Positions 5,982 to 34,943 of a stretch of DNA of 64,000 nt are shown here, piece by piece (the stretch's first letter is position 1; each line of letters starts with the position of its first letter). This DNA comes from a virus: the IMG/VR virus record IMGVR_UViG_3300002141_000152, positions 1 to 64,000 of that record. One strand, written 5' to 3'. The notes beneath the pieces are model-generated. The model had not been told where the DNA came from. It made no database searches and saw only the letters and a program-made list of their open reading frames with translations. The translations under genes and the position numbers were made by a program.

Positions 5982-6038
5982 TTTATTCTTCGATATTTTT
6001 TTAGTATTGTTTATCAGAGATAACTCTATTTTAATCAA

Positions 6039-7470: not shown

Positions 7471-7510
7471 ATCAAAACTACTTTCGATAAGAGTAGTAAA
7501 TAATCAATAT

Positions 7511-12676: not shown

Positions 12677-12701
12677 TTTATCTCCATGGTGATATTTAGC
12701 G

Positions 12702-12718
12702 TAATAAATAAAATAAAG
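12702..12718 (+). promoter_or_regulatory. Late promoter of the intein-associated endonuclease
   Basis: TAATAAATAAAATAAAG ends 9 bases before the ATG at 12728. Because it lies inside the longest open frame (from 12686), the true start should be 12728. Confidence 0.5.
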
Positions 12719-12727
12719 CGCGAAGTT

Positions 12728-13660: not shown

Positions 13661-13661
13661 T

Positions 13662-13781
13662 ATGAAAATTAAGTCAATAAAAATAAATAAATTAACCGCT
13701 CCAAAAAAATATTATGATATTACAGTTGATACGCATCATAACTTTGTAATAGGATCTTCTGCAAAGATTGTAACTCATAAT
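13662..13781 (+). mobile_element. Split intein C-terminal half
   Basis: Encodes 40 residues with blocks F and G, including the penultimate His and terminal Asn. Its size fits a canonical C-intein, so both splicing halves look intact. Confidence 0.9.
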
Positions 13782-14906
13782 TCATCATTGAGTGGTGCAA
13801 TTATTGGAATGGCTCAGAAATTTAAAAATTCAATGCCAGTTCTCGAAGAAATAGGACAGTTTGGTTCTCTTCGTTCTCCTGAAGCTGGTGCACCTAGATA
13901 TATCTCTACTAAACTACATAAGAACTTTAGATTGTTATATATGGATTTTGATCTACTTACTTCACGATATGAAGAGGGTAATGAAATTGAACCTCAATTT
14001 TTCTTACCTATTATTCCAACTGTGCTCTTAAATGGCGGTAGTGGAATTGCTGTAGGTTTTGCAACAAATATCTTAAATCGTAATCCGCTTGATCTAATTG
14101 ATGCCTGTATCAAAGAATTAGATGGAAAGAAATATAGTGAACCCGCTCCATGGTACTATGGATTTAGTGGCAGCTGTACACAGGACCCAGAAAATCACCT
14201 GGCCTGGGCATTTAGAGGTAAATATGAAATTAAAAATACTTCTACTATAGACATAAGTGAACTACCACCATCTGCTACATATGAAAAGTTTGATTTATTA
14301 CTTAGCACATTAGAAGATACTCGACGTCTTGCCAGCTATGACAATAATTGTCGATCCAATATCAATTACGTTCTTAAATTTAGACGTGAAGATCTTAAAT
14401 TATTAATTGATTCTAATAGATTAGACCGAACTTTAAAAATGGAAGAAAGACAGTCTGAAAATTTTACAGTACTTGATGAAAATGGTAATCTTAAGATTTT
14501 TAATAGTGTAACTGAGATAATTCAATATTTTGTCAAATTTAGATTGGCGTATTATATCAAGCGTAAGGAGTTTCTAATTAATCGATTGACGCACGAGATG
14601 ATGGTGCTTACAAATAAAGCGGAATTTATTAAGGCAATCATTAGCGGTAAATTAAAGATTAATAATGTACCTAAAAAAGAGATTATCCTGTTTCTCCAAG
14701 TTGCTAATTTTGAAGAAATAAATGGTTCATATTCATATCTTCTCGCAATGCCAATTCATACCCTAACCAAAGAGACATATGAAGATTTATTGGGTGATTG
14801 CTTTGCTAAAGAGAAAGAATTAGAAGAAATCAAGAAGCGGGAACATACTCAAATGTACAGAGAAGATCTTCAGGAACTTCGTAAAGCTTTAGTTAAAACA
14901 TATTAA
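13662..14906 (+). CDS. 52: Topoisomerase II medium subunit gp52, intein C-half plus C-extein
   Basis: 414 residues. Residues 1-40 are the intein C-half: YYDITVDTHHNFVI is block F and AKIVTHN block G, ending in Asn40 before Ser+1. The extein starts SSLSGAIIGMAQKF, the continuation of the GyrA-type YHHGD segment, and includes the cleavage site AGAPRYISTKL with the catalytic Tyr near residue 84. The remaining breakage-reunion domain and a coiled coil (LTHEMMVLTNKAEF to KRE) follow. It starts 1 base after the endonuclease stop. With the 12131 product and gp39 it should form the phage type II topoisomerase after trans-splicing. Confidence 0.94.
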   Translation: MKIKSIKINKLTAPKKYYDITVDTHHNFVIGSSAKIVTHNSSLSGAIIGMAQKFKNSMPVLEEIGQFGSLRSPEAGAPRYISTKLHKNFRLLYMDFDLLTSRYEEGNEIEPQFFLPIIPTVLLNGGSGIAVGFATNILNRNPLDLIDACIKELDGKKYSEPAPWYYGFSGSCTQDPENHLAWAFRGKYEIKNTSTIDISELPPSATYEKFDLLLSTLEDTRRLASYDNNCRSNINYVLKFRREDLKLLIDSNRLDRTLKMEERQSENFTVLDENGNLKIFNSVTEIIQYFVKFRLAYYIKRKEFLINRLTHEMMVLTNKAEFIKAIISGKLKINNVPKKEIILFLQVANFEEINGSYSYLLAMPIHTLTKETYEDLLGDCFAKEKELEEIKKREHTQMYREDLQELRKALVKTY

Positions 14907-20735: not shown

Positions 20736-21356
20736 GTGTCAGTTTTAATTAAAAATTTACGAGAATTTATCGGTATACACAAAGGTGAAAATATTGTAGT
20801 ATGTGGCTGTGGCATGTCTCTACTTCCATTCAAGGCTGTTCACTCTAAATATATTACAATCGGCGTAAATGACGTGCCTGCACTATTTCAACCAACCTAT
20901 TTAGTCGTTACTGATCATCCAAACCGGTTTGGTGTAGATCGACGGCGTAAGCTAGTCAATGAATCAACCGCAAAATACCTTTTTACTTGTGCAAAAGGCT
21001 GGCGGCATAAAAATTTAGTAAATTTTGAGCTTGGTTCAAAGGCAATCAAACATCTTGATGATCCAAATCGAATCGACCATTTTGTTAATTCACCCTATAC
21101 TGCAATTGGGCTTGCATATAAGCTTGGTGCAAAGAATATTGGATTAATTGGCGTCGATTTTACAAATGGACACTTCTATAATCCAAAAGATGGAGCCCAT
21201 CCGGTAATTCAAATAAATTATCTTAAAAAAGTAAATTCTGCCTATTTTAGTTTAAAACTTGAACTTGAAAAACGTGGAGTTTCGTTATATAATCTTAGCC
21301 AGCAAAGTCTGGTTGACCTACCAAAAATAACTCTCGATCAATTCGATAAACTATGA
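20736..21356 (+). CDS. GT42/MAF-like (DUF115-type) putative nonulosonate transferase
   Basis: 206 residues from a GTG start, first gene of the glycan island. The Rossmann-like start [14 protein letters not shown] is followed by [20 protein letters not shown], and the C-terminal part has [20 protein letters not shown] then IGVDFT. This layout (G-x-G-x-S, N-D, then S-x-x-x-A-x-x-LG-x-x-x-I-x-L-x-G-x-DF) recalls GT42 sialyltransferases and the MAF domain that transfers pseudaminic or legionaminic acid to flagellin. Its stop overlaps the NeuA-like gene. The neighbours make transfer of a CMP-nonulosonate plausible. The fold call is tentative. Confidence 0.55.
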
Positions 21357-22000
21357 AAATAATTATTCCAGCAAGACTTGGATCGAAGGGGTTACCTCTT
21401 AAAAATCGTACTCTTTTTGAACATACTGCTAAAACTATACCTGAAAACTTAATAAGTTCAGTTATTGTAACAACTGATGACCCAATAATTAGTGTGCAGG
21501 CAAAAGATTATGGATTTACTGTTATTCGTCGACCGGATGAACTGGCAGAAGATAATACTTCTGTTCGAGATGTTCTTATGCATGTGATTAATTCAATCCA
21601 TACTAAACCGGAAGAATTAATTGTGACGCTCTACCTAACCTATCCTCAGCGTACTTGGGAGGATATTGAATCAGCTATTAATTTCTTCCTAGAGTATTAT
21701 CACCGCGGATTAACTGATTCACTGCTGTGTAAAAAAGAAGCACCGGTACATCCATATCTTTGTCTTTGTGAACATGGAGTAGATGGAATATTTGGACGAC
21801 AACTTGTCACACATGACCTATATCGACGTCAAGATTATCCAAAGGTCTTTGAAATAAGTCATTTTATTTCAATATTTATCGCAGGTAAAACATATAATCT
21901 AAATAGTAATCTCTACTGCGATACTACGGTATTTTATCCAATATCTAACACAATTGATGTTGACACTCAAAAAGAACTAGACCAATTTAATGAACATTAA
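21353..22000 (+). CDS. neuA: CMP-nonulosonate (acylneuraminate) cytidylyltransferase, NeuA-like
   Basis: 215 residues of the CMP-sialate/CMP-KDO synthetase family, which activates a nonulosonic acid with CTP. The N-terminal nucleotide loop is IIPARLGSKGLPLKN; VIVTTDDPIISVQAKDYGF and RPDELAEDNTSVRDVL follow the family pattern, as does LYLTYPQRTWEDIESAI (usually LQPTSPLR). The start overlaps the previous stop by 4 bases and the end overlaps the next gene by 11. A NeuB-like synthase lies 11 kb downstream in the same block. The exact sugar (sialic, legionaminic, pseudaminic) cannot be told from the sequence. Confidence 0.88.
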   Translation: MKIIIPARLGSKGLPLKNRTLFEHTAKTIPENLISSVIVTTDDPIISVQAKDYGFTVIRRPDELAEDNTSVRDVLMHVINSIHTKPEELIVTLYLTYPQRTWEDIESAINFFLEYYHRGLTDSLLCKKEAPVHPYLCLCEHGVDGIFGRQLVTHDLYRRQDYPKVFEISHFISIFIAGKTYNLNSNLYCDTTVFYPISNTIDVDTQKELDQFNEH

Positions 22001-23498
22001 TATTGCAACTGAAATTAGTGATACCTCGTTTCATTTTACTCGAACGAGCGTTTTTAGCTTTATTGAAACAAATAAGTGGTTTAACGGTACGATATATCTT
22101 ATATCTCATCAGAGTTTGCCGGTATCTGATCGAAACATTGAGATAATTCGATCGATTTATCCAAAGGTCGAAGTCCTCGATGTTACTGGAGATCCAGTCT
22201 TTGCAAAATATTTGAATGTTTCATCTCGTCAAAATACTAGTGCTGAACTCTATTCAGATTTGCGATTCGCTCTATTTAATTTAGAACTATCTAATATATT
22301 GTTCTTTTCAAGTTCAAGTATCTTTTTTAGTGCCGTAACCGACATTCTTTCAGCAAATACATTTACTGCCTCACGCGATCTAAATTTATTTTATTTAGCC
22401 AGACCTCTAACTATTTCAAAATTCTTAGCTTCCGGCGAGTTAAAGAAATATATTTTAGATCAAGCTGTTGATTCTACCGGCATCTCATATATGTCTTCAG
22501 AATTTATTGATTCAAAATTTCATCAGTTAACTGGGAAATTAGCCGGGGCGCAATTTATAACATTTGACACATTTGGCTCAACCGCACAAAAATATACTAG
22601 AATAAACCTGGTATGGTTACATAAAAATCATATTATTTCTCAGAAACTATTAAGGCCAAGTTCATTTACTAAAATCAGCCCACCGACTATTCCACCGAGT
22701 CGTAAAGATGAACCATATCGTAAAAAGCAACTGGATCTTAAAACGCAACTAGATCGTAAAGAGAAACCGCTGCCTCTTTCAACTCGTAGTGGAGTGCCGC
22801 TTGATGGAATCAGTATAATTATTCCTGCACATAAAGCGAGTGACTATATTGAAGCTTGTCTAGATTCTATGAGATGTTTAACAATACCGACTGAAATATT
22901 AGTTGGAGTCGATAATTGTGACTCTACTCTAATTAAATTAACTCAAATTCAAGAAAAATATCTAAATTTAAAAATATTTAGAACGAATAAGTCAGTTGGA
23001 CCCTATATTATTCGAAATAGTTTAGTCGAGCATATCAACTATTCAAATATCTTATTTTTTGATGCTGATGATATTATGAAAGACTCACTGTTTACCATGC
23101 TTTCAACACACAATAATGGATCTTCTCAAATAAGATTCAAATACACAAATTTTAAGAATAATGCCGATCCAAGTAGGTCAATTAATATAAATTCAAAGGT
23201 TGCACATGGAGTCTTCTTCATACCTGCAGCAACGTTTAAAAAAGTAGGTGGGTTTCAGCCTTGGATATGCGGTGCTGATACTGAATTTATTAAACGGAGT
23301 CTCGCGAATAACCTGCACACTATTGAAATTAATCACTGCCTATTCTATCGTCGAATCCATGCAGAGAGCCTAACTAACACTTCAAGGACAGGGTATGGCT
23401 CAGGTCTTAGAAAAGCAAATAGTGCATGGATTAAAGCAAATAAAAATTGGAAAATTCCAATTATTAAGAAAACAACTCCATTAGAAAAAATAAATTAA
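21990..23498 (+). CDS. Two-domain glycosyltransferase, C-terminal GT2
   Basis: 502 residues. The N-terminal half (1-215) resembles a GT-A type domain, possibly GT8-like (NIATEISDTSFHFTRTSVFS, NGTIYLISHQSLPVS), but lacks an obvious DxD. A basic/proline linker (PPTIPPSRKDEPYRKKQ) joins it to a GT2 domain (about 270-480): ISIIIPAHKASDYIEACLDS, the FFDADD metal motif and VGGFQPWICGADTEFIKRS. GT2 enzymes use nucleotide sugars to extend glycans. The fusion could make alternating linkages. The N-terminal domain's activity is uncertain. Confidence 0.8.
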   Translation: MNINIATEISDTSFHFTRTSVFSFIETNKWFNGTIYLISHQSLPVSDRNIEIIRSIYPKVEVLDVTGDPVFAKYLNVSSRQNTSAELYSDLRFALFNLELSNILFFSSSSIFFSAVTDILSANTFTASRDLNLFYLARPLTISKFLASGELKKYILDQAVDSTGISYMSSEFIDSKFHQLTGKLAGAQFITFDTFGSTAQKYTRINLVWLHKNHIISQKLLRPSSFTKISPPTIPPSRKDEPYRKKQLDLKTQLDRKEKPLPLSTRSGVPLDGISIIIPAHKASDYIEACLDSMRCLTIPTEILVGVDNCDSTLIKLTQIQEKYLNLKIFRTNKSVGPYIIRNSLVEHINYSNILFFDADDIMKDSLFTMLSTHNNGSSQIRFKYTNFKNNADPSRSININSKVAHGVFFIPAATFKKVGGFQPWICGADTEFIKRSLANNLHTIEINHCLFYRRIHAESLTNTSRTGYGSGLRKANSAWIKANKNWKIPIIKKTTPLEKIN

Positions 23499-23511
23499 AA
23501 AAAATAAATTA

Positions 23512-24123
23512 ATGATGAATCATATTATTGTAACAAAATTGAATTTTAAAGATCGTGTGCTTCTTAATAAGTATTTGGAAATTACAAAGGCTGTCCTAAT
23601 TCCTGCATTAAAGTCACAAAAACAAAAGAATTTTACTTGGGTGTTACTTACGAATCGAGCAGATACTGAATACTTACAAAAGGAACTCGATTTTCCATTT
23701 GTTCCAATTTATGGAGTTGCTTCGCTATTACAATATTGTATTGAGCACAAGTGTCATATACAAACTCGACATGATTGTGATGATTGGATGTCACAGGAGT
23801 ATGTCGCTGCAATACAAAAGGAGTATGTAAAAAACATAACCATGCATAACACATTTATTATACATACTCAGCCAATTAGAGTCGCATATTCGACTGGTGC
23901 AGAATCAACATTGTCTAGGTATCATAATACTCGATGTTCCATGTTCCTAAGTCTATGTCAAAAAAATGTCATACATCATGTTCTTGTAAAACAGCATGGT
24001 CAAATGTATGAACTTGCAAATTCAGTAATTAATTTAGGTACAGGTTATAATAAATGGATTATTCATGGAAATAATTTATCAATTGTACGAAGTCGACTCA
24101 AAAAAATATTAAGAAATAAATGA
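23512..24123 (+). CDS. Putative rhamnosyltransferase-like glycosyltransferase
   Basis: 203 residues resembling the putative rhamnosyl transferase family: FTWVLLTNRADTEYLQKELD, then the TRHDCDDWMS metal motif and QEYVAAIQKEY. The C-terminus is shorter than usual (family members are often near 260). Two ATGs lie in tandem at the start. Next gene overlaps by 4 bases. Acceptor and sugar are unknown. Confidence 0.65.
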   Translation: MMNHIIVTKLNFKDRVLLNKYLEITKAVLIPALKSQKQKNFTWVLLTNRADTEYLQKELDFPFVPIYGVASLLQYCIEHKCHIQTRHDCDDWMSQEYVAAIQKEYVKNITMHNTFIIHTQPIRVAYSTGAESTLSRYHNTRCSMFLSLCQKNVIHHVLVKQHGQMYELANSVINLGTGYNKWIIHGNNLSIVRSRLKKILRNK

Positions 24124-24857
24124 TGAATTCTAAAACAGTAGATATATGTGTAGTTACTTACAATAGGCTTGAATATCTTAAGCTGTGTGTATGGTCAATA
24201 TTGGCGTCGACTAAAATTCCATATCGACTGTTTGTAATATCTGATAATTCTACCGATGGTACAAATGAATGGCTACTTAAAATGAAAAAGTTAGGTAAAA
24301 TCGATGAAGTCATAATTAACTCTGAAAACCTAGGAAGTGCTGAATCATTCAATAAAATAATCAGAGAAACTTCTTCTGAATATTTTGTGATGGCGTGTGA
24401 TGATATTTGGTTTCATAGGGGATGGGATACTGCCTCACTTAGTATTTTAAATAAATTTAACGACTGTGGAATAGTTACTTTTTTTAACATTCCTCAATTA
24501 AAAAGTTACGATCAATCGACTAAGATCGATGAAACGACGCATAGGATACGGGCAACAGGGCTTGGCGCTAGTATAGTTAGTCGAAAATTGTACGATGCTG
24601 CCGGAAAGTTTAGTCTTCCGGCTAACCTAAAAATGGGATATTTCGCTGGGCCATTCTGTGGTAAAGCAAATAAAACAAAGTTGGTTCGAAGGAACCAGTA
24701 TGTTACTGTTCCTGAATATGCAGTTCAAATGGATCGATATAATCCTGGTGGAAAAGGCAGACCTCCGTTGCACCAAGAATATCTTTATTTAGACTATAAT
24801 TCAAGAAGAAGCATTGAAAAAAAGAAGCACATCGCGCATAACCATCAAAAAAAGTAA
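24120..24857 (+). CDS. GT2 family glycosyltransferase
   Basis: 245 residues with the GT2 core: VDICVVTYNRLEYLKLCVWS at the N-terminus, ISDNSTDGTNEWL for nucleotide binding, ENLGSAESFNKII and the acid pair in MACDDIWFHRGW. The C-terminus is basic (EKKKHIAHNHQKK). Overlaps the previous stop by 4 bases. Substrates unknown. Confidence 0.85.
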   Translation: MMNSKTVDICVVTYNRLEYLKLCVWSILASTKIPYRLFVISDNSTDGTNEWLLKMKKLGKIDEVIINSENLGSAESFNKIIRETSSEYFVMACDDIWFHRGWDTASLSILNKFNDCGIVTFFNIPQLKSYDQSTKIDETTHRIRATGLGASIVSRKLYDAAGKFSLPANLKMGYFAGPFCGKANKTKLVRRNQYVTVPEYAVQMDRYNPGGKGRPPLHQEYLYLDYNSRRSIEKKKHIAHNHQKK

Positions 24858-24862
24858 GTAAA

Positions 24863-25585
24863 GTGAAAAAGGTAAATAATAAAAGTAAAATAAGCATAAT
24901 AATTTCAGCATTTGCGGCTGACTTGTATATTAAGGAATGCTTAGTCTCAATAGACAACCAGACATATTTTAAAGAGTTTAACGATTATGAAATATTAGTT
25001 GGAATAGATGGCTGTCCATCTACTTTAGCTGAAGTTAGTAAGTTTAAGGACACTATTCGAAATTTAAAAGTAATATGGTTTCCTACTAACTCTGGCCCAT
25101 ATCTAGTCTTCAACACCTTGATATCACTGAGTAAGTTTCAATCGATTTCTATATTTGGAGCAGATGACATAATGGAAGAAAACTTCATTGAACATAATTT
25201 AAGTCTATTAGAAAATAATTCTTGTGTTTTTGCTATGGGCTGTAACTTTACTCATCCATACAGAGAAGAAAAGCAAAAAACCTATAACCCAGACGGCGGT
25301 ATCATATTTAATAAATCTAATTTTGTATCAATTAATGGTTTTGAACAATGGCGATGTGGAGCAGACAGTGATCTTAAAATTAGATTTAAACTACTTGGCT
25401 TAACTTTAATAGATGCTGACCTCCCTACGTATCTACGTAGATTACATAAAAATAGTTTGACGGCCGGTGCCACCACATATGGGTTCGGCGGAGAGTATAG
25501 AACAAATGTACAAAAAATAGTTAGATCTAGGGATACTCCTAATATAGAAAAATACTGTGTTCTTGCTGATTATAAAATAATTTAA
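24863..25585 (+). CDS. GT2 family glycosyltransferase
   Basis: 240 residues from a GTG start. ISIIISAFAADLYIKECLVS, VGIDGCPSTLAEV, PTNSGPYLVFNTL and FGADDIMEENF give the GT2 fold and metal motif. The sequence resembles the C-terminal domain of the 21990 gene (SVGPYIIRN, FDADDIM, CGADTEF versus CGADSDL), so the two are paralogues. C-terminal RRLHKNSLTAG matches RRIHAESLTNT there. Confidence 0.83.
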   Translation: MKKVNNKSKISIIISAFAADLYIKECLVSIDNQTYFKEFNDYEILVGIDGCPSTLAEVSKFKDTIRNLKVIWFPTNSGPYLVFNTLISLSKFQSISIFGADDIMEENFIEHNLSLLENNSCVFAMGCNFTHPYREEKQKTYNPDGGIIFNKSNFVSINGFEQWRCGADSDLKIRFKLLGLTLIDADLPTYLRRLHKNSLTAGATTYGFGGEYRTNVQKIVRSRDTPNIEKYCVLADYKII

Positions 25586-25590
25586 CATAA

Positions 25591-26325
25591 ATGAAGTCTA
25601 AAATAAAGCCTAAAATAATATTTTTAACTTGTACTTGGAATAGACCAAATATCACTAAAATTTTTAGAGATAATCTACTAGATATACAAAATAAAACCCA
25701 AGATTTATTTGAGTTTATTAACATCGTAATCGATAGTGATAATAGCAATTATGACATATTTAAAGATCACAGCTCCTTTATTTATCATAATTATGACAAT
25801 TTACCATTATCAAATAAATGGAATTATGGTAGTTCTCTATGCAGCTCTATAGACTTTGATTATATTATAATAATTGGCTCAGATGATATATTAGATGAAT
25901 CAATATTAACTAAATATTATGAATATATGATCGCAGGATATGACTTTATCGGACTATTAGATCTGTATGTTTATAATATGCCTACTGATAAATTATATTA
26001 TTGGCCAGGATACTCTGAGCCTACTCGAAAAGGAGAAACTATTGGATTAGGTAGGTGTTTATCTAATCACCTTGTCAAAAAATTAAAATATAATCTATGG
26101 CTTGATAATAAAAATAGTGTCCTTGATTCTAGTATGAATAAAAAAATTAATAAGGTGTCGAATATTAAAAAGATCACATTCTATTCTAAAGATATTGGGA
26201 TCTGTTGCGATATTAAAAGTAAAACTAATATCACTTCATTTTCTAAACTAAGTAAAAAGATGGATGAGATTGATCAAACTACTGTTAAATATAAAAAATT
26301 AAAATCAATGATTTATGAAAACTGA
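25591..26325 (+). CDS. GT2-like glycosyltransferase
   Basis: 244 residues. IIFLTCTWNRPNITKIFRDN and IIIIGSDDILDESIL mark a GT2-like domain with SDD as metal ligand. The second half is Lys/Asn-rich and less conserved. The 3' end overlaps the next start by 11 bases. Base composition is even lower in GC than its neighbours, by eye, which may reflect separate acquisition. Confidence 0.75.
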   Translation: MKSKIKPKIIFLTCTWNRPNITKIFRDNLLDIQNKTQDLFEFINIVIDSDNSNYDIFKDHSSFIYHNYDNLPLSNKWNYGSSLCSSIDFDYIIIIGSDDILDESILTKYYEYMIAGYDFIGLLDLYVYNMPTDKLYYWPGYSEPTRKGETIGLGRCLSNHLVKKLKYNLWLDNKNSVLDSSMNKKINKVSNIKKITFYSKDIGICCDIKSKTNITSFSKLSKKMDEIDQTTVKYKKLKSMIYEN

Positions 26326-27079
26326 GATTAAAATAACCGTTGCCCTTCCCTTATACAATATGGGAAAAATAGTTGAGCTCGCTCTACATGGTCTAGCTAA
26401 TCAAGAGACGATATATCCTTGGGAGTTAATAATATGCGAGGAAAATTTAGGAGATTATTATGGTCTTAAAAAATTCATGTCTTGGGAAAAAGATTTAAAG
26501 TCTAATGGATGTGTTAAGATACATTACATTAAATTGAAAGAATGGGTCCCACTCGGACAAAAATGGAAAATTTTAGCGCAAGCGGCATCAGATACTACGT
26601 GTTTTATTCTTCAAGCTGGCGATTGTCTACCACATAGTAAAAGGCTTCAGGAGACATGTGATGCTTTTGAAAAGATTAACTGTAATTATTATGATGAACA
26701 GCAAGGATACTTTTATTCGTATGCATTGAATAAAACGATTATCTTTAATCCTACTGAACTCTATAAACACCCATGTCGCTTAAACATGGCATGGTCGACT
26801 CAATTGATAAAGACACTGCCAGATAATACTATGAAAAGAAACGTTGATGGTTTCCTATGTTCTGAGCTTTCTAAAAAAGAGAAAATAATTAAATTTAGAA
26901 ATAATAGTTTCCACAATGATGGAGTAGACACAGATGGATATAATAATATTTCACGTCGATCAAGATTTTTTATGGAAAAATCTCAAATATTTCAGTCAAC
27001 TAACATTGATTTAATTAATGCGATCCCAATCTTGAATAAATTTAAAGGCTTGGAACTTACTAAAAATAAAATAAAATAA
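26315..27079 (+). CDS. GT2-like glycosyltransferase with altered metal motif
   Basis: 254 residues. ITVALPLYNMGKIVELALHG and WELIICEENLGDYYGL follow the GT2 pattern, but the usual DxD position reads LQAGDCLPHS. It may use a different metal ligand set or be inactive. Lies between two other glycosyltransferase genes without gaps. Confidence 0.7.
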   Translation: MKTEIKITVALPLYNMGKIVELALHGLANQETIYPWELIICEENLGDYYGLKKFMSWEKDLKSNGCVKIHYIKLKEWVPLGQKWKILAQAASDTTCFILQAGDCLPHSKRLQETCDAFEKINCNYYDEQQGYFYSYALNKTIIFNPTELYKHPCRLNMAWSTQLIKTLPDNTMKRNVDGFLCSELSKKEKIIKFRNNSFHNDGVDTDGYNNISRRSRFFMEKSQIFQSTNIDLINAIPILNKFKGLELTKNKIK

Positions 27080-27081
27080 TA

Positions 27082-27864
27082 ATGGTGATAAAACAAGCAA
27101 GAGTTTCGTCAACCTTAGAGAAATATTTTGGGAACGAGTTTAGAAGTAAATGGAAATTAGAGAAGTATTATGATCCGAACTTGCCGGCTATATTCTTGGG
27201 TCTATATAAGAATGAAGATTTTAATGCTTTCCTTTCCCATAAATCATTTAGATTATTTGTTTTAGGCGGATCTGATATGACTCCTAAAAATCTTTTAAGA
27301 TTACGTGAAGTAATAAATGACGGCAGAACTTTTACTTGTAATCCACCTGGTGAAATATCTGAAACTCTATCTAAAAATAACATTCCTCATAAGCATGTGT
27401 ATATTCAGATTAAGGACTATTCCAAATTTAAACCTGTTCCATTGGGCGATAAGATATATGTCTATTTTGGTGCTTCTAGACAAGACTTATCTTACTATAA
27501 GTGGGAAGAAATAGTAGAGCCGCTAATCTCACATTATGGTAAAGATAAGATACTCTTCACAAAAAACCAAACATCAGACTGCTTAATTAACTCAATATAT
27601 CCGCAAGCCTTTGTTTATATTAAGCCAACGGTTGCTGGAGGAGCCACTACAATGTGGGAACTTGGCCATATGGGAATCAGAACATTAGGCAACGGTGACC
27701 TTCGTCCTCCTAATTTTACTCAATATTTTAATGTTGATCATTTAATCTCATTGATAACAAAAGAAGAAAAATACATCGGTAAAACTAGAGTCGATGTTGC
27801 AAATGATGTTAGAGAACTTTTTGAAACTTCTAAAAATTGGCTTAATTTAGATTTTTGGAAATAA
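27082..27864 (+). CDS. GT-B-like glycosyltransferase, paralogue of the 30701 gene
   Basis: 260 residues. The second half has PLGDKIYVYFGASRQDLSYY, then GGATTMWELGHMGIRTLGNG, resembling the donor-binding domain of GT-B transferases. It shares YYDPNLPAIFLG, PLGDK[IV][YF]VY, GIRT and a terminal NLDFWK with the gene at 30701, so they are duplicates. It is short for a full GT-B enzyme (usually 350 or more) and may have a reduced acceptor domain. Specific role unknown. Confidence 0.6.
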   Translation: MVIKQARVSSTLEKYFGNEFRSKWKLEKYYDPNLPAIFLGLYKNEDFNAFLSHKSFRLFVLGGSDMTPKNLLRLREVINDGRTFTCNPPGEISETLSKNNIPHKHVYIQIKDYSKFKPVPLGDKIYVYFGASRQDLSYYKWEEIVEPLISHYGKDKILFTKNQTSDCLINSIYPQAFVYIKPTVAGGATTMWELGHMGIRTLGNGDLRPPNFTQYFNVDHLISLITKEEKYIGKTRVDVANDVRELFETSKNWLNLDFWK

Positions 27865-27877
27865 TAAAAATACAAAT

Positions 27878-28666
27878 ATGGATAATATACAAACTAATGA
27901 ATTAGAAATTGGAAAAAACGTAATTATTTCTCCAAGTGCAATCATTCGAGGACTAAATGGTCCTGCAAAAAGAATAAAAATAGGTGATAACACGTACATT
28001 GGAGACAATGTACAAATAATAGTCGACGACTTAGAGATAGGCGACTATTGTAAAATTCACCATCACTGCAATTTACATGGATATAAACCATTGCGGATTG
28101 GTCACAATGCATGGATTGGACAATATACTATAATTGATAGCATTGGAGGAACAACAATTGGTGATAATTGCGGAATCGGCGCGCATTCTCAGTTATGGTC
28201 TCATATTTTATATGGGGATGATCTTGAAGGATGCAACTATAACTCCAGAAAAGAGCTCATAATTGGTAAAGACTGCTGGTTTGTCGGCCACTGTATCGTT
28301 TCTCCAATTATAGCAAAAGATAAATCTATGGCACTAGTAGGTTCAGTAATAACAAAAGATATGGAAGAAAATCATATTTATGGCGGATCTCCAGCAAAGG
28401 ATCTTACTGGAAAAATTCCATCACAATTTAAAAAAATAACATTAGATGAAAAATATGAAAAAATGAAAAATCATTATATGAGTTTCGGATCTCCTGAAAA
28501 TATTAAAATTATAACAGAAATTTCAGAAATTCAAGATGAAAATATTTCATATTTTAATGTTAGCGATAGAACGTACACTAAAAGACTTTCTGAAAATGAA
28601 ATATCATTTATGAAATATTTGCTTCCAACTAAAGCTAAATTTACTCCACTTAAAAAAATCAAATAA
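27878..28666 (+). CDS. Left-handed beta-helix acyltransferase
   Basis: 262 residues with hexapeptide repeats over about residues 8-170: IGDNTYIGDNVQI, IGDYCKIHHHCNL, IGHNAWIGQYTII, IGDNCGIGAHSQL, then IGKDCWFVGHCIV. GSVITKDMEENHIYGGSPAK is the usual closing motif. Such enzymes transfer acetyl or similar groups from CoA to amino or hydroxyl groups of sugars. The following aminotransferase gene suggests N-acylation of a 3- or 4-amino sugar. A C-terminal helical extension (from 190) is of unknown use. Confidence 0.85.
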   Translation: MDNIQTNELEIGKNVIISPSAIIRGLNGPAKRIKIGDNTYIGDNVQIIVDDLEIGDYCKIHHHCNLHGYKPLRIGHNAWIGQYTIIDSIGGTTIGDNCGIGAHSQLWSHILYGDDLEGCNYNSRKELIIGKDCWFVGHCIVSPIIAKDKSMALVGSVITKDMEENHIYGGSPAKDLTGKIPSQFKKITLDEKYEKMKNHYMSFGSPENIKIITEISEIQDENISYFNVSDRTYTKRLSENEISFMKYLLPTKAKFTPLKKIK

Positions 28667-28668
28667 TT

Positions 28669-29304
28669 ATGCCAATTAAAAAACACAATCCCTACAAAAT
28701 AGTTCAAATGTTTGAGGAAGAACTTGCACTTTATACAGGTGCACAATACGCAGTATCTGTAGATAGCTGTACAAATGCACTATTTCTTTGCTGTACATAT
28801 TTAAAAGTTAAAGAAGCAATTATTCCATCAAAAACCTATTTGTCAGTGCCGATGAGTATCGCTCAAGCTGGAGGAGAAGTAATTTTTGACACACGACATA
28901 CAACAAATCATTGGACTGGAATTTATCAAATTAAACCATATCCAATATATGATTCAGCTAAAAGACTTACATCAAATATGTATATTCCAGGATCATTTAT
29001 GTGTCTTTCATTTCATATTAAAAAACAATTAGGAATAGGTAAAGGCGGAATGATACTCACTGATGATTTAGCTGCAGTTGACTGGTTTAAGCGTGCTCGA
29101 TATGAAGGCCGAAGCGAACGCTTCTATAAAGAAGATGATATTACATCGTTCGGCTGGAATATGTATATGACTCCACAGGAAGCTGCACAGGGACTGTGTC
29201 TATTACAAAATTATCCAGAACATGTCGCAGATCAGGGAGAAGTAAATGGATATCGAGACCTTACTGAATTTTCTATTTTTAAAAGCAATAGAACCATCAA
29301 GTAA
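28669..29304 (+). CDS. Short DegT/DnrJ/EryC1-type sugar aminotransferase
   Basis: 211 residues, covering the N-terminal large domain of sugar-nucleotide aminotransferases: FEEELALYTGAQYAVSVDSC, AIIPSKTYLSVPMSIAQAGG, PIYDSAKRL (Asp for the PLP ring) and SFHIKKQLGIGKGGMILTDD with the Schiff-base Lys. The C-terminal small domain is absent (family about 370 aa), and no frameshift is seen. It may work as a dimer with a partner or be a minimal form. A paralogue lies at 30065. Likely makes an amino sugar for the island's glycan. Confidence 0.78.
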   Translation: MPIKKHNPYKIVQMFEEELALYTGAQYAVSVDSCTNALFLCCTYLKVKEAIIPSKTYLSVPMSIAQAGGEVIFDTRHTTNHWTGIYQIKPYPIYDSAKRLTSNMYIPGSFMCLSFHIKKQLGIGKGGMILTDDLAAVDWFKRARYEGRSERFYKEDDITSFGWNMYMTPQEAAQGLCLLQNYPEHVADQGEVNGYRDLTEFSIFKSNRTIK

Positions 29305-29357
29305 TAAAACTTGAAGTATCACATATCGTATTAGATGTAGTCTAATAACGCTAAAGG

Positions 29358-30059
29358 ATGAAACTTGCAGTAATAATACCTACATATTGGAAAAATGACG
29401 GTAGCACTCGTGCACATCTTGAGAAGGCGCTTAACTCCGTTGCTGATCAGACACACAAAGACTATAAAGTCTTTTTAATTGGTGATGCATATTCAGATTC
29501 TACTGAATTTATTGAGGTATCTAAAATAATTGACTCTAATAAAATATATGTTGAAAATCTTGAAGTTCCAGGAGAAAGACATAAGTATTTCAGCTATCCA
29601 CTTTGGGTATGTGGTGGAGTTGCCGCATCAAATACTGGAATTCGCGCAGCAATTGCCGCCGGTTTTGATTACATATGTCATCTAGACCACGATGATTGGT
29701 ACTTTCCAAATCATCTTAAATTACTTTCTGAAACGATTGAGTTAACTGGAACTAACTTTGTAACCACTAGGTGTGGTGCTGACTGGCCAGCCATTGCTTC
29801 AACTGAATACTTAATGAAATATCGACCTCTACCTTGTAAAATATTTAAAGTCACAACCTGCGTGAACTATAAATATTTTAATATTGTTTTTAGAAACATG
29901 ATTGAAGAATGTGGCACTGTTTATCCAAGTGATGCTGACTTATGGGCTAGAATAAATGAACTTCTAATTAATAAAAATGAGTGGGGTTATCTAATTAATG
30001 AATCAACCTGCGGTCATGGACCTGAGCAAACAGTTATTCACAATCCAACTATAATCTAA
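29358..30059 (+). CDS. GT2 family glycosyltransferase
   Basis: 233 residues: LAVIIPTYWKNDGSTRAHLE, VFLIGDAYSDSTEF and the metal motif CHLDHDDWYFPNHLKLL. Preceded by 53 bases without a recognisable promoter. It sits between the two short aminotransferase genes. Substrates unknown. Confidence 0.83.
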   Translation: MKLAVIIPTYWKNDGSTRAHLEKALNSVADQTHKDYKVFLIGDAYSDSTEFIEVSKIIDSNKIYVENLEVPGERHKYFSYPLWVCGGVAASNTGIRAAIAAGFDYICHLDHDDWYFPNHLKLLSETIELTGTNFVTTRCGADWPAIASTEYLMKYRPLPCKIFKVTTCVNYKYFNIVFRNMIEECGTVYPSDADLWARINELLINKNEWGYLINESTCGHGPEQTVIHNPTII

Positions 30060-30064
30060 AAAAG

Positions 30065-30700
30065 ATGGCAAACGGAATCTATAAAATAACAGAAGACTTT
30101 GAAAAAGAGCTTGGTGACTATACAGGTTCACCCTATGTAATCACAGTCGATAATCAAAGCAATGCACTATTCTTAGCATTAATGTATGAAAAAGTTACAG
30201 GTCAGGAGATTACAATTCCTGCAAGAACATATCCATCGGTTCCCTGTGAAATTATACATGCTGGAGCAAAGGTAAACTTTAGACCGGTTGAAGGAAAAAC
30301 AATTAAGGGGGCATATCAATTAGAACCTACAAATGTCTGGGATTCAGCACTATGCTTTACGGCAGATATGTATAAACCTGGAACACATATGTGTATCTCT
30401 TTTACTGGACCATATAAACATTTTAAATTAAGTAAAGGCGGTGCAATCTTAACTGATAATCATGATGCATATTTATGGTTTAAAAGAGCTAGATATAGCG
30501 GACGTCGTGAGTGTTCATATCATGATGATTATTTTGATATGGTAGGTTGGAATTTTTATATGATGCCTGAATTAGCTGCTCGCGGACTACTATTAATGAA
30601 CCAATTCTATAATATTGATGGTACTAAAAAGACCAATGCTGATTTAGAATTGCCTTATCCAGATTTATCTAAATTTGAAATTTATCAAAAAAATAAATAG
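30065..30700 (+). CDS. Short DegT/DnrJ/EryC1-type aminotransferase, paralogue of 28669
   Basis: 211 residues, same length and layout as the 28669 product: FEKELGDYTGSPYVITVDNQ, ITIPARTYPSVPCEIIHAGA, NVWDSALCF (Asp) and SFTGPYKHFKLSKGGAILTD with a candidate PLP Lys. Both end with a WFKRARY.G and an E-A/L-A-A-x-G-L helix, then stop. Sequence divergence suggests an old duplication with different substrates. It also lacks the small domain. Confidence 0.75.
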   Translation: MANGIYKITEDFEKELGDYTGSPYVITVDNQSNALFLALMYEKVTGQEITIPARTYPSVPCEIIHAGAKVNFRPVEGKTIKGAYQLEPTNVWDSALCFTADMYKPGTHMCISFTGPYKHFKLSKGGAILTDNHDAYLWFKRARYSGRRECSYHDDYFDMVGWNFYMMPELAARGLLLMNQFYNIDGTKKTNADLELPYPDLSKFEIYQKNK

Positions 30701-31435
30701 GTGATGAAAATATCACAAGTGTCTGTTTCACAGGCAGCGACATATTTCAAAACAGGATTAAAAGAACGCTGGGGATTATCTGACTACTCTGACCCCAATG
30801 CTCCATGCCTATTTTTTGGAGTTTCAGATCAAGTTGATTTAATTAATAAGCATAAAGGATATAAATTACTTTATTTTATAGATAAGTACGACACATATCC
30901 TGCCAACATATCTTCGCATAATGTCATATGTTTTGCTAATCCATATTCAAAGATACCTGCACATATTAAAACTAAACCTGGATGGTTTGAAACTAGGGTA
31001 AATACTATACTTACTCCAGCCCCATTAGGTAATAAAGTTTTTGTATATCTTAGAAATCCAACATATGCAAGTTTTCATGGTTCAAATCAAATACCAATAC
31101 TTCAAAAATTAATAAATTATGAAATACTTCCGCTGTCTCCAAGTCAGCCTATCCCATTCTCAGATGTAGTAGATAATTATTATCGAAAGTGTTTTGTATC
31201 TGTGAATTTTACAGAAACTGAAGGATTAACATCGGTTTGTGATTTGGGACTTATTGGAATCAGGACAATTATGAATACTAAAATAGATTTAGCAAGTCTA
31301 TTAAAATGTAATACGTTTGAAGAAGTACCGCAATTAATAAAAAATGAATCTGTAAAAATTGGAAGTATTCAACCGATCATTAATAATTATACCATAAATC
31401 CTCATTGGCAAAATATTGATTTTTGGCTAACTTAA
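30701..31435 (+). CDS. GT-B-like glycosyltransferase, paralogue of the 27082 gene
   Basis: 244 residues. Shared landmarks with the 27082 product are YSDPNAPCLFFG, PLGNKVFVYL, LTSVCDLGLIGIRTI and the closing WQNIDFW. Here the donor-site Glu pair reads FTETEGLTS, closer to the E-x7-E type motif of GT4 enzymes. Start follows the aminotransferase stop directly. The block thus contains two aminotransferase plus GT-B pairs. Confidence 0.6.
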   Translation: MMKISQVSVSQAATYFKTGLKERWGLSDYSDPNAPCLFFGVSDQVDLINKHKGYKLLYFIDKYDTYPANISSHNVICFANPYSKIPAHIKTKPGWFETRVNTILTPAPLGNKVFVYLRNPTYASFHGSNQIPILQKLINYEILPLSPSQPIPFSDVVDNYYRKCFVSVNFTETEGLTSVCDLGLIGIRTIMNTKIDLASLLKCNTFEEVPQLIKNESVKIGSIQPIINNYTINPHWQNIDFWLT

Positions 31436-31452
31436 TTATAATTAATAAAAAT

Positions 31453-32049
31453 ATGAAAAAAGCAATAATTGGCGCTGGCGGATTTGGCCGTGAAGTTTTT
31501 TGGAGTTTATCACCAATAGAAAGAATAGGCTCTGTATTTTTTGTAGATGATGTATATTGGAAAGACAACACAGATAATGTCTATCCGCTATCTAAATTTA
31601 ATCCAGAAGAATATGAAGTTATTATTGCAGTTGGCTCGCCAGAGGCTAGAGCGAAGATTGTCGAGGCGTTACCTAAGTCGACTCGATTTTTTACACATAT
31701 TCATAAAAGCGCACAGTTACTTGCTCCAGATATTGAGATAGGTGAGGGTAGTATTATTTGTGCAAATTCAATCATTACGACTAGTGTAAAAATAGGTAAA
31801 CACTGTCACCTAAACTTAGGTTCAACGATTGGCCATGATACTGTAATTGGAGACTTTTTTACAACTGCTCCAGGAGCAAAAATTTCAGGCAACTGTGAAA
31901 TCGGAGACCGTGTATATTTTGGTACGAACTCATCAGTCAAAGAAAAAATAGAAATTTGTAGTGATGTAACGATTGGTTTAAATTCAGGTGTTGTAAAAAA
32001 TATTTACTTCCGTGGAGTATATGTTGGGCTGCCTGCTAAAAAAATATAA
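31453..32049 (+). CDS. NeuD/PglD-type sugar O/N-acetyltransferase
   Basis: 198 residues from the ATG at 31453 (an earlier TTG-type frame start at 31423 precedes the Rossmann motif and is unlikely). MKKAIIGAGGFGREVFW is the N-terminal sugar-binding Rossmann loop; residues 90-195 are left-handed beta-helix repeats (IEIGEGSIICANSIIT, IGKHCHLNLGSTIGHDT, PGAKISGNCEIGDRVYFG). Enzymes of this type acetylate UDP-amino sugars or sialic acid. Next to NeuB/NeuA-like genes this fits modification of a nonulosonate or its precursor. Confidence 0.87.
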   Translation: MKKAIIGAGGFGREVFWSLSPIERIGSVFFVDDVYWKDNTDNVYPLSKFNPEEYEVIIAVGSPEARAKIVEALPKSTRFFTHIHKSAQLLAPDIEIGEGSIICANSIITTSVKIGKHCHLNLGSTIGHDTVIGDFFTTAPGAKISGNCEIGDRVYFGTNSSVKEKIEICSDVTIGLNSGVVKNIYFRGVYVGLPAKKI

Positions 32050-32051
32050 TA

Positions 32052-32885
32052 ATGAAACTTAGTGTATCATATATTGTATTTGATGGAGTTGAATTGCTAG
32101 AACACTCAATTCGTCAAATTAGAAAGCATGCTAACCACATCAGCGTAATTTATCAGAATTTTTCATGGTTTGGAAAGAAATTATCTGCTGCTGATCTGAT
32201 CATACTTAAATCTCTTGCACGTTCTGGACAAATTGATGAACTAATACTCTTTACTTCATTTGTGCCACTTCGAAACAAGACACAATCTTCAATTCTTACT
32301 GCAAAGAGTTATGAGCGAGCTAAGAGACAGGTCGGTCTTTCTGCGGCTCTACGTAATTCATGTACTCACTATTTATGTATGGATGTAGACGAATTCTATA
32401 CTTCTGATCAATTTGCAACCGCTAAAAATCTAATTAAGACTAGTGGATTTGAGTCAACTGCTGTTCGCTTAATTAATTATGTAAATATCCCAACTGTACA
32501 TCGTGGATATGATTCAACTCGTGTCCCATTTATCTGTAAAATTTCAAATGCGTCAAAGATGAGTACCTCATTTTTTGTAAAATGTGATCCTACTCGAGGA
32601 ATTTATCCAGTATCAGCTAAACGCCATGAATTTGCTCCAAATATTATTACTATGCATCACATGGAAACAGTACGCAAAGATATATTATTGAAGTATGATT
32701 CAACTACTCGAATGATATTCAACCGTGAAAGAACACACGAGCTAATAAATAGTATAAAATCAGTAAATGAAAAAAGTAAATCAGTCAACTTTAAAAAAAT
32801 AATATTTCCTGGGTTAAATCAAGTTACATTAACTACTTGTAAAAACATATTTGGAATACCTTACACTACATGGAAAAAACAATAA
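32052..32885 (+). CDS. Glycosyltransferase with MDVDEFY motif
   Basis: 277 residues. CTHYLCMDVDEFYTSDQF carries a DxD-type metal motif found in GT92/GT2-like phage and viral transferases; KLSVSYIVFDGVELLEHSIR forms the N-terminal strand. The protein has no membrane segment. It overlaps the NeuB start by 16 bases. Substrates unknown. Confidence 0.72.
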   Translation: MKLSVSYIVFDGVELLEHSIRQIRKHANHISVIYQNFSWFGKKLSAADLIILKSLARSGQIDELILFTSFVPLRNKTQSSILTAKSYERAKRQVGLSAALRNSCTHYLCMDVDEFYTSDQFATAKNLIKTSGFESTAVRLINYVNIPTVHRGYDSTRVPFICKISNASKMSTSFFVKCDPTRGIYPVSAKRHEFAPNIITMHHMETVRKDILLKYDSTTRMIFNRERTHELINSIKSVNEKSKSVNFKKIIFPGLNQVTLTTCKNIFGIPYTTWKKQ

Positions 32886-33757
32886 TTATTGCAGAGGTAG
32901 GGCTGAATTATGCCTATGGAACAGATCAATCGAAGTTCATAGAAAACGCAAAAGCTCTAATTGATGTTGCCGCTGTTTCTGGTGCAGATTATGTAAAATT
33001 CCAAAAACGGACGCCCGAACTATGTATACCTCTTGCCGAACGAGAAAAAATAAAGTCTGTTCCGTGGAGAAAAGAGGAAACTACTTATTTTCAATATAAG
33101 TTAGATATTGAATTTACAAAGGATCAATATCGAGAGATTGACGATTACTGTACTTCAAAGGGAATAAAATGGTTTGCTTCAGTATGGGATAAGGGAGCAG
33201 TTGATTTTATGCGAGGTTTCGAAACAATACTGCCAAACGGAAAATGGGGCACCATGACTAAAATACCTTCAGCCTTAATTAATGATTTAGAATTAGTCGA
33301 CTACGCTAGAAGCAGTGCAGAGTTTTTGCTTATCTCTACTGGGATGAGTACTCAAAAAGAAATTGATTCTGCGATTCAAGTCGGCTTGCCAGATGTTGTA
33401 TTTCATACAAATTCAACATATCCTGCACCAATAGAAGAATTAAATTTAGAGTATATAACATATCTTAAACATATTTCTATAGAATTTGAAAATAAATTTA
33501 AAATAGGATATTCGTCTCATGAAAGATCAATTGTTACTTGTGCTTCATCTATTTTATATGGAGCAACTTGGGTAGAGCGACATATCACTCTAGATAGAAA
33601 TTTATGGGGAAGCGATCAGTTAAGTTCATCTGATCTTCCTGAATTTGCATTGCTAATTAAAAACATTAGAGAAATTGAATCATCTAGAGGTACGTACGGA
33701 TTACGAAAAGTATTAAAATCTGAATTAGCAAAGAGAAAAACACTTAGAGGAAAATGA
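32870..33757 (+). CDS. neuB: N-acylneuraminate/nonulosonate synthase, NeuB-like, without SAF domain
   Basis: 295 residues matching the NeuB TIM barrel, which condenses phosphoenolpyruvate with an N-acyl mannosamine-type or 6-deoxy sugar. IAEVGLNYAYGTD and GADYVKFQKRTPE begin the barrel; LISTGMST, HTNSTYPAP, GYSSHERSIV and VERHITLDRNLWGSDQ follow, with the two metal-binding His in YSSHE and ERHITL. The C-terminal antifreeze-like SAF domain (full NeuB about 350 aa) is missing; the chain ends after a short basic helix. The SAF domain normally covers the partner's active site, so activity or oligomer form may differ. Start overlaps the transferase upstream. Confidence 0.9.
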   Translation: MEKTIIIAEVGLNYAYGTDQSKFIENAKALIDVAAVSGADYVKFQKRTPELCIPLAEREKIKSVPWRKEETTYFQYKLDIEFTKDQYREIDDYCTSKGIKWFASVWDKGAVDFMRGFETILPNGKWGTMTKIPSALINDLELVDYARSSAEFLLISTGMSTQKEIDSAIQVGLPDVVFHTNSTYPAPIEELNLEYITYLKHISIEFENKFKIGYSSHERSIVTCASSILYGATWVERHITLDRNLWGSDQLSSSDLPEFALLIKNIREIESSRGTYGLRKVLKSELAKRKTLRGK

Positions 33758-34056
33758 AGATCACACCAACAAAAATCTTTCAATTTATTGAAGGTAACCT
33801 CAAGATGCTTGGAGATAAAATGCATCTTCTACCAAAACACGAACGTGAACAAGTTCTATATCGGTCAATTGTCTGTAAAGATGATTGTATGGAATATGGA
33901 TACTGCGCCTACTGTGGATGTTCTGTTCCAGGTAAAATGTATGTGAAAGAGTCCTGTAATAACGGTGACCGCTTTCCAAATCTTATGAGTGCTCCAGATT
34001 GGGAGAAATTTAAACTTGAAAAAAATATTGAAATCGAAGGTGATATATTACATTGA
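33754..34056 (+). CDS. Cysteine-rich small protein, probable zinc-binding
   Basis: 100 residues with Cys at IVCKDDCMEYGYCAYCGCS and KESCNNGDRFP, enough for one or two zinc sites. It overlaps the NeuB stop by 4 bases. Similar small Cys-rich proteins occur in T4-like and cyanophage genomes without known function. Possibly an adaptor for the neighbouring enzymes; no direct evidence. Confidence 0.6.
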   Translation: MKITPTKIFQFIEGNLKMLGDKMHLLPKHEREQVLYRSIVCKDDCMEYGYCAYCGCSVPGKMYVKESCNNGDRFPNLMSAPDWEKFKLEKNIEIEGDILH

Positions 34057-34345
34057 TATTGACGATACTATTTGTACATTAGGCAGGACACTGGACTACT
34101 CAACTGCAATACCAAATCTTACTGCAATTGCTAAGGTCAACCTACTATACTCAGAAGGTCACCGCATCGTTTTCTGGACTGCTCGGGGCACTGGTTCTGG
34201 TCTGGATTGGAGACAATTAACTGAAGATCAACTCCTCTCTTGGGGCGTCCAGTATGATGAATTAAAGTTTGGAAAGCCAATATATGATGTATTTATTGAT
34301 GATAAAAATATGAATGCTGAGGATTGGTTAAATGAAGAAGACTAG
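34040..34345 (+). CDS. HAD-superfamily phosphatase-like protein
   Basis: 101 residues from GTG 34040; an ATG at 33989 would overlap the previous gene by 68 bases and add an unconserved segment. Motif I is YIDIDDTICT (nucleophile Asp and acid Asp), motif II is FWTARG, and VFIDDKN is motif IV; motif III Lys is probably the KFGKPIYD Lys. This compact HAD form occurs in polysaccharide clusters, where it may dephosphorylate a sugar phosphate such as the 9-phosphate of a nonulosonate. That link is inference from position. Confidence 0.72.
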   Translation: MIYYIDIDDTICTLGRTLDYSTAIPNLTAIAKVNLLYSEGHRIVFWTARGTGSGLDWRQLTEDQLLSWGVQYDELKFGKPIYDVFIDDKNMNAEDWLNEED

Positions 34346-34943
34346 AGTTCTTGTTTTAGGAAACGATCCACAAATTAATCAAATAGCTTTTGATAAACTT
34401 GCACTAGACGTTATTACGATCGGTGTAAATCGAATTTGGTTAAAGCATATCCCAAACTATTTTTTCTTTAATGATTATGATATTGTTGAAGACTTGGATG
34501 CTGCTCCAGAAATAAGAGCTAACCTTATTCAAAAGTCTAGCATTTTTGCAAGTGACTGGCTGCGACCTAGTGCTAAAAAGAGAAATGCGAATATTCCAAG
34601 TTGGGTGAAAGTATTTGAGAGAGCAGATAAATTACAATTTCCAGATGCAGTGTCTACTGGACTTCAGATTTTTTCTAGAGAATACAGCCAACAGACCAAT
34701 TGTATCTTCTATATTGCTGGCGTTTCTTTGACTTGGCAAGAACCAAGTCACTTTTGGAAAACATCAGACCACCGAACACGAAATAAGCATGGAGGTGATT
34801 GGTATACTCCAAGATTCGATAAAATGATCAATAATTTTAGAAGATTAAAGGGCCTAGGCTATACGATGGTCTCAGTCAACCCAACCTCTGCCCTAAATAA
34901 ATTTATCCGATATGAGAATATTGGAAATCTCTACCGTAAGTAA
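34332..34943 (+). CDS. GT42/MAF-like putative transferase, distant paralogue of 20736
   Basis: 203 residues, last gene of the glycan island. VLVLGNDPQINQIAF and ITIGVNRIWLKHIPNYFFFN parallel the start of the 20736 product, and DAVSTGLQIF with CIFYIAGVSLT parallels its [19 protein letters not shown] part. Two such proteins at opposite ends of the cluster suggest similar catalytic roles on different acceptors. The C-terminus KLGYTMVSVNP-like region is typical of the DUF115 fold. Assignment is tentative. Confidence 0.5.
   Translation: MKKTRVLVLGNDPQINQIAFDKLALDVITIGVNRIWLKHIPNYFFFNDYDIVEDLDAAPEIRANLIQKSSIFASDWLRPSAKKRNANIPSWVKVFERADKLQFPDAVSTGLQIFSREYSQQTNCIFYIAGVSLTWQEPSHFWKTSDHRTRNKHGGDWYTPRFDKMINNFRRLKGLGYTMVSVNPTSALNKFIRYENIGNLYRK

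Follow-up and report, generated by a model that had tools for sequence, protein, structure and literature searches.

The DNA considered here (the window) comprises bases 1-64000 of the IMG/VR record IMGVR_UViG_3300002141_000152 of a freshwater bacterial virus; the record, of 108,970 bp, may itself be a fragment. Between positions 20736 and 34943 it carries an island of 20 co-directional open reading frames (ORFs) on the + strand, separated by gaps of -16 to +53 bp, which very probably serves to make a nonulosonic acid. A first-pass annotation, made from the letters alone, had already noted the dense one-strand packing with overlaps or small gaps and had proposed a phage locus for a nonulosonate-containing glycan, a proposal that is supported here. 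Gene families were assigned by Pfam, NCBIfam and PHROGs, and the 20 ORFs are as follows.

20736-21356, +, ST1, GT42-like (Cst-I/II fold), MptE/DUF115-related putative CMP-nonulosonate transferase; CstII profile match, AlphaFold2 (AF2) fold, PHROG; fixed left end
21353-22000, +, NeuA-like CMP-nonulosonate cytidylyltransferase; PF02348, 39.4 bits; fixed left end
21990-23498, +, two-domain glycosyltransferase, GT2 being the C-terminal half; PF00535; the variable interior begins here
23512-24123, +, glycosyltransferase-like, weak Rhamno_transf; PF11316, 24.2 bits
24120-24857, +, GT2 glycosyltransferase; PF00535, 64.7 bits
24863-25585, +, GT2 glycosyltransferase; PF00535, 43.5 bits
25591-26325, +, probable GT2-like protein; PF00535 at E=0.018 only; no homologue in the seven near relatives
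26315-27079, +, probable GT2-like protein; PF00535 at E=0.014 only; no homologue in the seven near relatives
27082-27864, +, unclassified, possible glycosyltransferase, paralogue of 30701 (cluster 22); no convincing Pfam match
27878-28666, +, left-handed beta-helix acyltransferase (WcaF/hexapeptide); PF00132; under all NCBIfam cut-offs shown
28669-29304, +, compact DegT aminotransferase 1, without the C-terminal third but with Lys119 and Asp95; PF01041, 77.5 bits
29358-30059, +, GT2 glycosyltransferase; PF00535, 40.8 bits
30065-30700, +, compact DegT aminotransferase 2, recently exchanged cassette; PF01041, 57.3 bits
30701-31435, +, unclassified, possible glycosyltransferase, paralogue of 27082 (cluster 22); no Pfam match
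31423-32049, +, NeuD/PglD-type sugar O/N-acetyltransferase; TIGR03570, 175.7 bits, cut-off 160.8; PglD_N
32052-32885, +, probable glycosyltransferase, unclassified, DVDEF motif; no Pfam match; family with 7 viral members
32870-33757, +, SAF-less NeuB, predicted nonulosonate-9-phosphate (Kdn-9-P) synthase; PF03102, TIGR03569 partial; fixed right end
33754-34056, +, P100, 100-aa Cys-rich conserved protein; phrog_13610; fixed right end
34040-34345, +, small C0-type HAD, predicted nonulosonate-9-phosphate phosphatase, refined GTG start; phrog_1238/EcbF-like; fixed right end
34332-34943, +, ST2, GT42-like putative CMP-nonulosonate transferase, last gene; AF2 model, Foldseek

The families named in the first-pass annotation are borne out by these matches: the NeuB-like protein, the NeuA-like protein (CTP_transf_3), the NeuD/PglD-type acetyltransferase, a second beta-helix acyltransferase at 27878, two short aminotransferases (DegT proteins of 211 aa each) and the HAD phosphatase gene. 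Its count of about ten glycosyltransferases stands in part, with five to seven supported (four over the Pfam GT2 cut-off, one weak rhamnosyltransferase and two at E values of 0.014-0.018), the other three (27082, 30701 and 32052) being unclassified and only plausible. Features that it had not described are the GT42-like first and last ORFs (20736 and 34332), the absence of a SAF domain from NeuB and the conserved 100-aa Cys-rich ORF at 33754.

A NeuB without its SAF domain

The island NeuB matches PF03102 at 176 bits, against a gathering score of 22.1, and aligns with positions 1-276 of the 329 in TIGR03569 (the NeuB_NnaB equivalog) at 155 bits, well below the curated cut-off of 399.65. With the N-acetylneuraminate synthases NeuB/SiaC of that family it shares the TIM barrel and the catalytic residues, but it stops one residue after the end of the barrel, so that the SAF domain with Arg314 is absent. 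Beyond the barrel there are 0-8 aa in the 52 viral relatives from IMG/VR and 0-24 aa in the cellular ones, of which 113 were compared (from Chloroflexota, Bacteroidota, Ignavibacteriota and others), as against 54-74 aa in 17 SAF-type NeuBs. The equivalents of the catalytic residues (E25, Q55, K129, Y186, S213, H215, E234 and H236) are kept in both types. Arg47 and Trp106 are markers of the SAF-less proteins in the compared sets, and the position of NmeNANAS Glu134 holds L, S, A, K or other residues in them versus E or D in the SAF type. In the NeuB tree the SAF type occupies one side of a branch with support of 96, and the viral sequences are interleaved with the cellular SAF-less ones.

In NmeNANAS, Arg314 of the SAF domain contacts and positions the N-acetyl group of N-acetylmannosamine (ManNAc), and the R314A variant is inactive (PMC6795526). 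Since this residue handles the N-acetyl group, a SAF-less synthase is consistent with a substrate that lacks one, for example mannose 6-phosphate (Man-6-P).

The HAD partner and a probable 9-phosphate route

A HAD gene lies within 4 kb of NeuB at 33 of 41 non-redundant viral loci, being of the small type at 27 of these and of the KdsC type at six, with no locus carrying both. All but one of the 33 are on the same strand as NeuB, and several overlap it by 1-4 bp. The association extends to cells, where a KdsC-type HAD is found directly upstream of NeuB in many Bacteroidia, in Melioribacter and in a Cytophagales genome, and where gene fusions join it to the NeuB N-terminus in Mucilaginibacter (480 aa) and to NeuA in Chloroflexota (412 aa); in one viral contig (L045), NeuA is likewise fused to the small HAD. 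The best solved-structure match of the cellular HADs is 3e81 with its relatives (E=7e-35 and 2e-38), KdsC-type proteins following close behind. The molecule in 3e81 is labelled 'acylneuraminate cytidylyltransferase' in the PDB; we take 3e81/3e8m to be BT1713, the phosphatase acting on the 9-phosphate of the nonulosonic acid Kdn (Kdn-9-P).

The HAD of the island was listed from 33989, whereas its homologues begin at the equivalent of a GTG at 34040, which is adopted here as the start. Its motif residues D23, D25, T64, K96 and D105 are invariant among homologues, and it matches phrog_1238 and, at 19.7 bits against a cut-off of 162, the EcbF/BcbF-like family. It is a candidate for a new family of 9-phosphatases.

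That two unrelated phosphatases fill a single genomic niche beside NeuB is the best reason to think that it makes a 9-phosphate. On this comparative evidence the island NeuB is probably a nonulosonate-9-phosphate synthase; that the product would be Kdn, formed as Kdn-9-P from Man-6-P and phosphoenolpyruvate (PEP), we rate at somewhat under even odds. A 9-phosphate route would also explain why NeuC (PF02350) was found neither in this record nor in 13 of 15 related viral records. The first-pass annotation had reasoned that, with neither NeuC nor a dehydratase present, the host must supply a precursor. The absences stand, no NAD-dependent epimerase/dehydratase (PF01370) having been found in this record either, but the call for a special precursor was probably wrong in emphasis, because the type of NeuB and its HAD indicate a route from ordinary metabolites; Man-6-P, PEP and cytidine triphosphate (CTP), the inputs of the 9-phosphate route, are all ordinary host metabolites.

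The closest known counterpart is the Kdn pathway, whose enzymes have been described in Bacteroides thetaiotaomicron (BT1713-1715), and for which the synthase of Prymnesium parvum is specific for Man-6-P (PMC6200933). The predicted phage set has the same composition of 9-phosphate synthase, phosphatase and CMP-sugar synthetase, with Man-6-P as the proposed input, and cellular relatives of the phage NeuB carry the HADs that best match 3e81. The phage differs in its unrelated small HAD, its two GT42-like transferases and its array of glycosyltransferases. If this reading is right, the pairing of a SAF-less NeuB with a HAD could be used, and tested, as a marker of 9-phosphate nonulosonate synthases, in viruses as well as in Chloroflexota and Bacteroidota.

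Two groups of cellular loci were seen alongside. Those on Saprospiraceae contigs (L060, at 6001-8622, and L059) combine a SAF-less NeuB and a NeuA with a DegT of full length, near the viral clade, and may represent a donor, a recipient or an unrecognised prophage. Chloroflexota and Ignavibacteriota loci (L088, L107 and similar ones) share a conserved operon of SAF-less NeuB, NeuA(-HAD), an SDR and a Gfo/Idh-like protein or class III aminotransferase, which probably makes a modified Kdn-like sugar.

Putative transferases at the two ends

The sequence profile of ST1 matches CstII (1ro7) in the PDB at E=7e-4 and a sialyltransferase PHROG at E=7e-5. Its AF2 model (pLDDT 86) has CstII as its top two Foldseek matches, with a probability of 1.00, these being the sole matches below 1e-3. 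For ST2, a sequence-profile search gave no match and the family was recognised by fold comparison alone, the top 11 Foldseek matches of its AF2 model (pLDDT 88) all being GT42 sialyltransferase chains at a probability of 1.00. Both models superpose on GT42 structures with template modelling (TM) scores of about 0.5-0.6. Because they share this predicted fold with Cst-I and Cst-II of Campylobacter jejuni, ST1 and ST2 are likely CMP-nonulosonate transferases at the start and end of the island; they differ from the Campylobacter enzymes in being shorter (203-206 aa) and only 12-16% identical to them. The best NCBIfam match of NeuA is PseF-like, at 47.6 bits and below the cut-off.

Fixed ends and an exchangeable interior

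NeuB, P100, HAD and ST2 are present in all of the seven nearest relatives, at 50-92% identity (58-92% for P100), and the six that extend to the left end all have ST1 and NeuA, NeuA being 54-88% identical. In near relatives, too, P100 lies between NeuB and HAD. Where the contigs extend far enough, the virion genes on either side are also the same. The distribution of the 14 interior genes among the seven is patchy, and two of them (25591 and 26315) have no homologue there. At the nucleotide level, the flanks are 69-73% identical to those of L011 and L020, where the interior barely aligns and the second DegT gene reaches 85-87%; against L006, the flanks are 87-90%, the gene P277 92% and NeuB 78% identical, and two interior blocks fail to align. 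ST1-NeuA and NeuB-P100-HAD-ST2 are thus the fixed ends of a locus whose interior is a mosaic, swapped between related phages, and the excess of identity in the second DegT gene over the flanks marks it as a recently exchanged cassette.

The short DegT proteins and PglD probably do not belong to the nonulosonate core: their genes are among the exchangeable ones of the interior, and several relatives with NeuA-NeuB-HAD do not have them, such as L007 and L018, in which no DegT or PglD was detected. Both DegT proteins end about 110 residues before the solved DegT enzymes. Within the compact family, neither the pyridoxal phosphate lysine (Lys119) nor the Asp95-x-Ala97 motif varies. The compact proteins may or may not be active enzymes. 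Seven phage records hold similar proteins, among them that of Flavobacterium phage vB_FspM_immuto (NC_055915), an isolated phage that also has a glycosyltransferase cluster and an annotated pilin-glycosylation protein, but which is not among the phage records matching NeuB.

Conserved ends around an exchangeable centre are the architecture of O-antigen and capsule loci, and the same pattern in the phage island suggests that diversity of glycans is selected for in phages.

The acceptor of the glycan

No protein of the island exceeds 1.64 in its 19-residue hydropathy maximum (2.43 in the control, a sterol desaturase), and Pfam found neither Wzx (PF01943) nor an initiating transferase (PF02397) in the 109-kb record, in which Wzy was not searched. 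For these reasons a cytosolic acceptor is more likely than a lipid-linked surface glycan. Among acceptors, we favour virion protein, with some confidence; an acceptor that is both a virion protein and glycosylated in the cytosol stands at roughly even odds. The precedent for what is proposed here, a nonulosonate attached to a structural protein within the cytosol, is flagellin glycosylation by Maf (PMC4065374), although the phage has no Maf protein and its sugar pathway differs. A MptE/DUF115 domain is shared by the Maf proteins.

The chief alternative is that the glycan modifies the surface polysaccharide of the host and excludes rival phages, in the manner of seroconversion. The resemblance to O-antigen and capsule loci would suit this, and a host polymerase and flippase could serve, but the missing flippase and initiating transferase, the lack of an island membrane protein and the failure of PADLOC to find any defence family speak against it, and we consider it unlikely.

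A proposed pathway and its rivals

From the gene content, the clade and residues of NeuB, the HAD linkage, the GT42 fold, the fixed ends and the mosaic interior, we infer substrates, enzyme activities, the Kdn identity of the sugar and the acceptor as follows. The SAF-less NeuB would condense PEP with a hexose-6-phosphate, most likely Man-6-P of the host, and the resulting nonulosonate-9-phosphate, most likely Kdn-9-P, would be dephosphorylated by the small HAD. NeuA would form the CMP sugar, which ST1 and ST2 would transfer. What remains of the glycan would be built and decorated by the glycosyltransferases, acyltransferases and compact DegT/PglD proteins of the interior, whose genes pass as cassettes from one related phage to another, the nonulosonate ends remaining in place. 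Assembly would most likely take place in the cytosol on a phage protein, as in Maf-type flagellin glycosylation. That the island is in this sense a largely self-contained phage module for making and transferring a nonulosonic acid, with the glycan assembled on one of the phage's own proteins in the cytosol, we hold with a probability of about 0.55.

Several observations weigh against parts of this reading. The NeuB tree leaves out BT1714 itself, and 80 of the cellular loci were picked by patterns that include Arg47 or Trp106, so that the conservation of these residues is partly selected; the Bacteroidia NeuB set, gathered by a hidden Markov model, is free of this bias. Arg47 as a phosphate contact is conjecture, and a 290-aa chain with SAF-type residues (6ncs) makes the absence of SAF alone not diagnostic. 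At the threshold used, sequence comparison did not support the small HAD as a direct homologue of the Kdn-9-P phosphatase: among solved structures 9iqw and 1xpj come nearest, with no KdsC-type match, a polynucleotide-kinase PHROG matches it more weakly, and near relatives have other genes between NeuB and HAD. The arguments from absence are weakened by the possible incompleteness of the record, as export genes may lie elsewhere, and a thymidylate synthase-family protein in the record leaves room for DNA modification.

A classical route with help from the host, as implied by the first-pass annotation, in which NeuB would make a legionaminic-, pseudaminic- or N-acetylneuraminic-type sugar from host ManNAc or a 2,4-diacetamido hexose and DegT and PglD would provide the 4-acetamido step, draws on PseC and LegC as the best NCBIfam matches of the first DegT protein, on PglD passing NeuD_NnaD and on the nearness of NeuA to PseF. 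The DegT and NeuA scores lie far under the curated cut-offs, however, NeuB has neither SAF nor Arg314 and lies outside the SAF clade, L007 and L018 do without a detectable DegT or PglD, and the recurrent HAD link is left unexplained, all of which makes this route improbable. Least probable by far is that the glycosyltransferases decorate modified DNA bases, as might be imagined for a T4-like phage that encodes, near 1.2-2.7 kb, a dCMP deaminase and a protein of the thymidylate synthase family, since the latter matches thymidylate synthase PHROGs and we know of no CMP-nonulosonate transferase acting on DNA.

A bolder extension of the favoured module, which we regard as doubtful, is that phages of this family attach to their virion proteins, in the cytosol, a Kdn-type sialic acid made from host Man-6-P. 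They would do so with a minimal synthase, GT42-like transferases and a small HAD representing a new 9-phosphatase family, and would change their glycan type by cassette exchange between fixed ends, a viral equivalent of serotype switching. If the module is real, many uncultured phages bring a near-complete nonulosonate pathway, making viral sialylation independent of a nonulosonate-making host. In the open literature searched, the coverage of which was incomplete, we found no paper on phage nonulosonate synthesis and nothing relevant on phage-encoded virion glycosylation or on immuto phages.

Surroundings and other features of the record

To the left of the island, on the - strand, lie genes for a DnaJ-domain protein, a head maturation protease and a T4-type major head protein (MCP), and to the right, also on the - strand, one for a gp5-like baseplate hub; by these flanking head and baseplate genes the phage is T4-like. 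Among named phages, its head and baseplate proteins come closest to those of Prevotella Lak phages, and the baseplate matches also include Tenacibaculum phages; on that account a Bacteroidota host is likely. No near-DNA relative of the 35-60 kb stretch was found among named phages, nor any cultured relative with the NeuA-NeuB-HAD module. The GC content of the island (33%) differs little from that of the flanks (34-37%). The T4 late-promoter motif TATAAATA occurs no more often than expected by chance and the count of sigma-70-like promoters is below chance expectation, while 12 terminator-like matches were observed against 5.8 expected.

A similar N-terminal leader recurs on many proteins (48219, 62043 and, among ORFs of the whole record, 75549, 88214, 89348 and 91163), examples being MKQKFIKLFEEH, MKQYVKLFENW, MKHIKLFETF, MIKSFKQWINE and MLKSFKRYLRE; it is perhaps a tag that targets proteins to the virion or scaffold. 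A topoisomerase II-like frame at 12131-14906 appears interrupted, with 12686 as a separate frame, and ORF 13662 opens with a stretch containing IVTHNSS that resembles the C-terminal end of an intein, which suggests insertion of an intein or homing endonuclease. The ORFs at 12686-13660 and 52273-53856 are paralogues (cluster 40), the latter adjoining a DNA polymerase ORF (53927) whose match to the DNA polymerase family phrog_262 is confined to the C-terminal part of that family.

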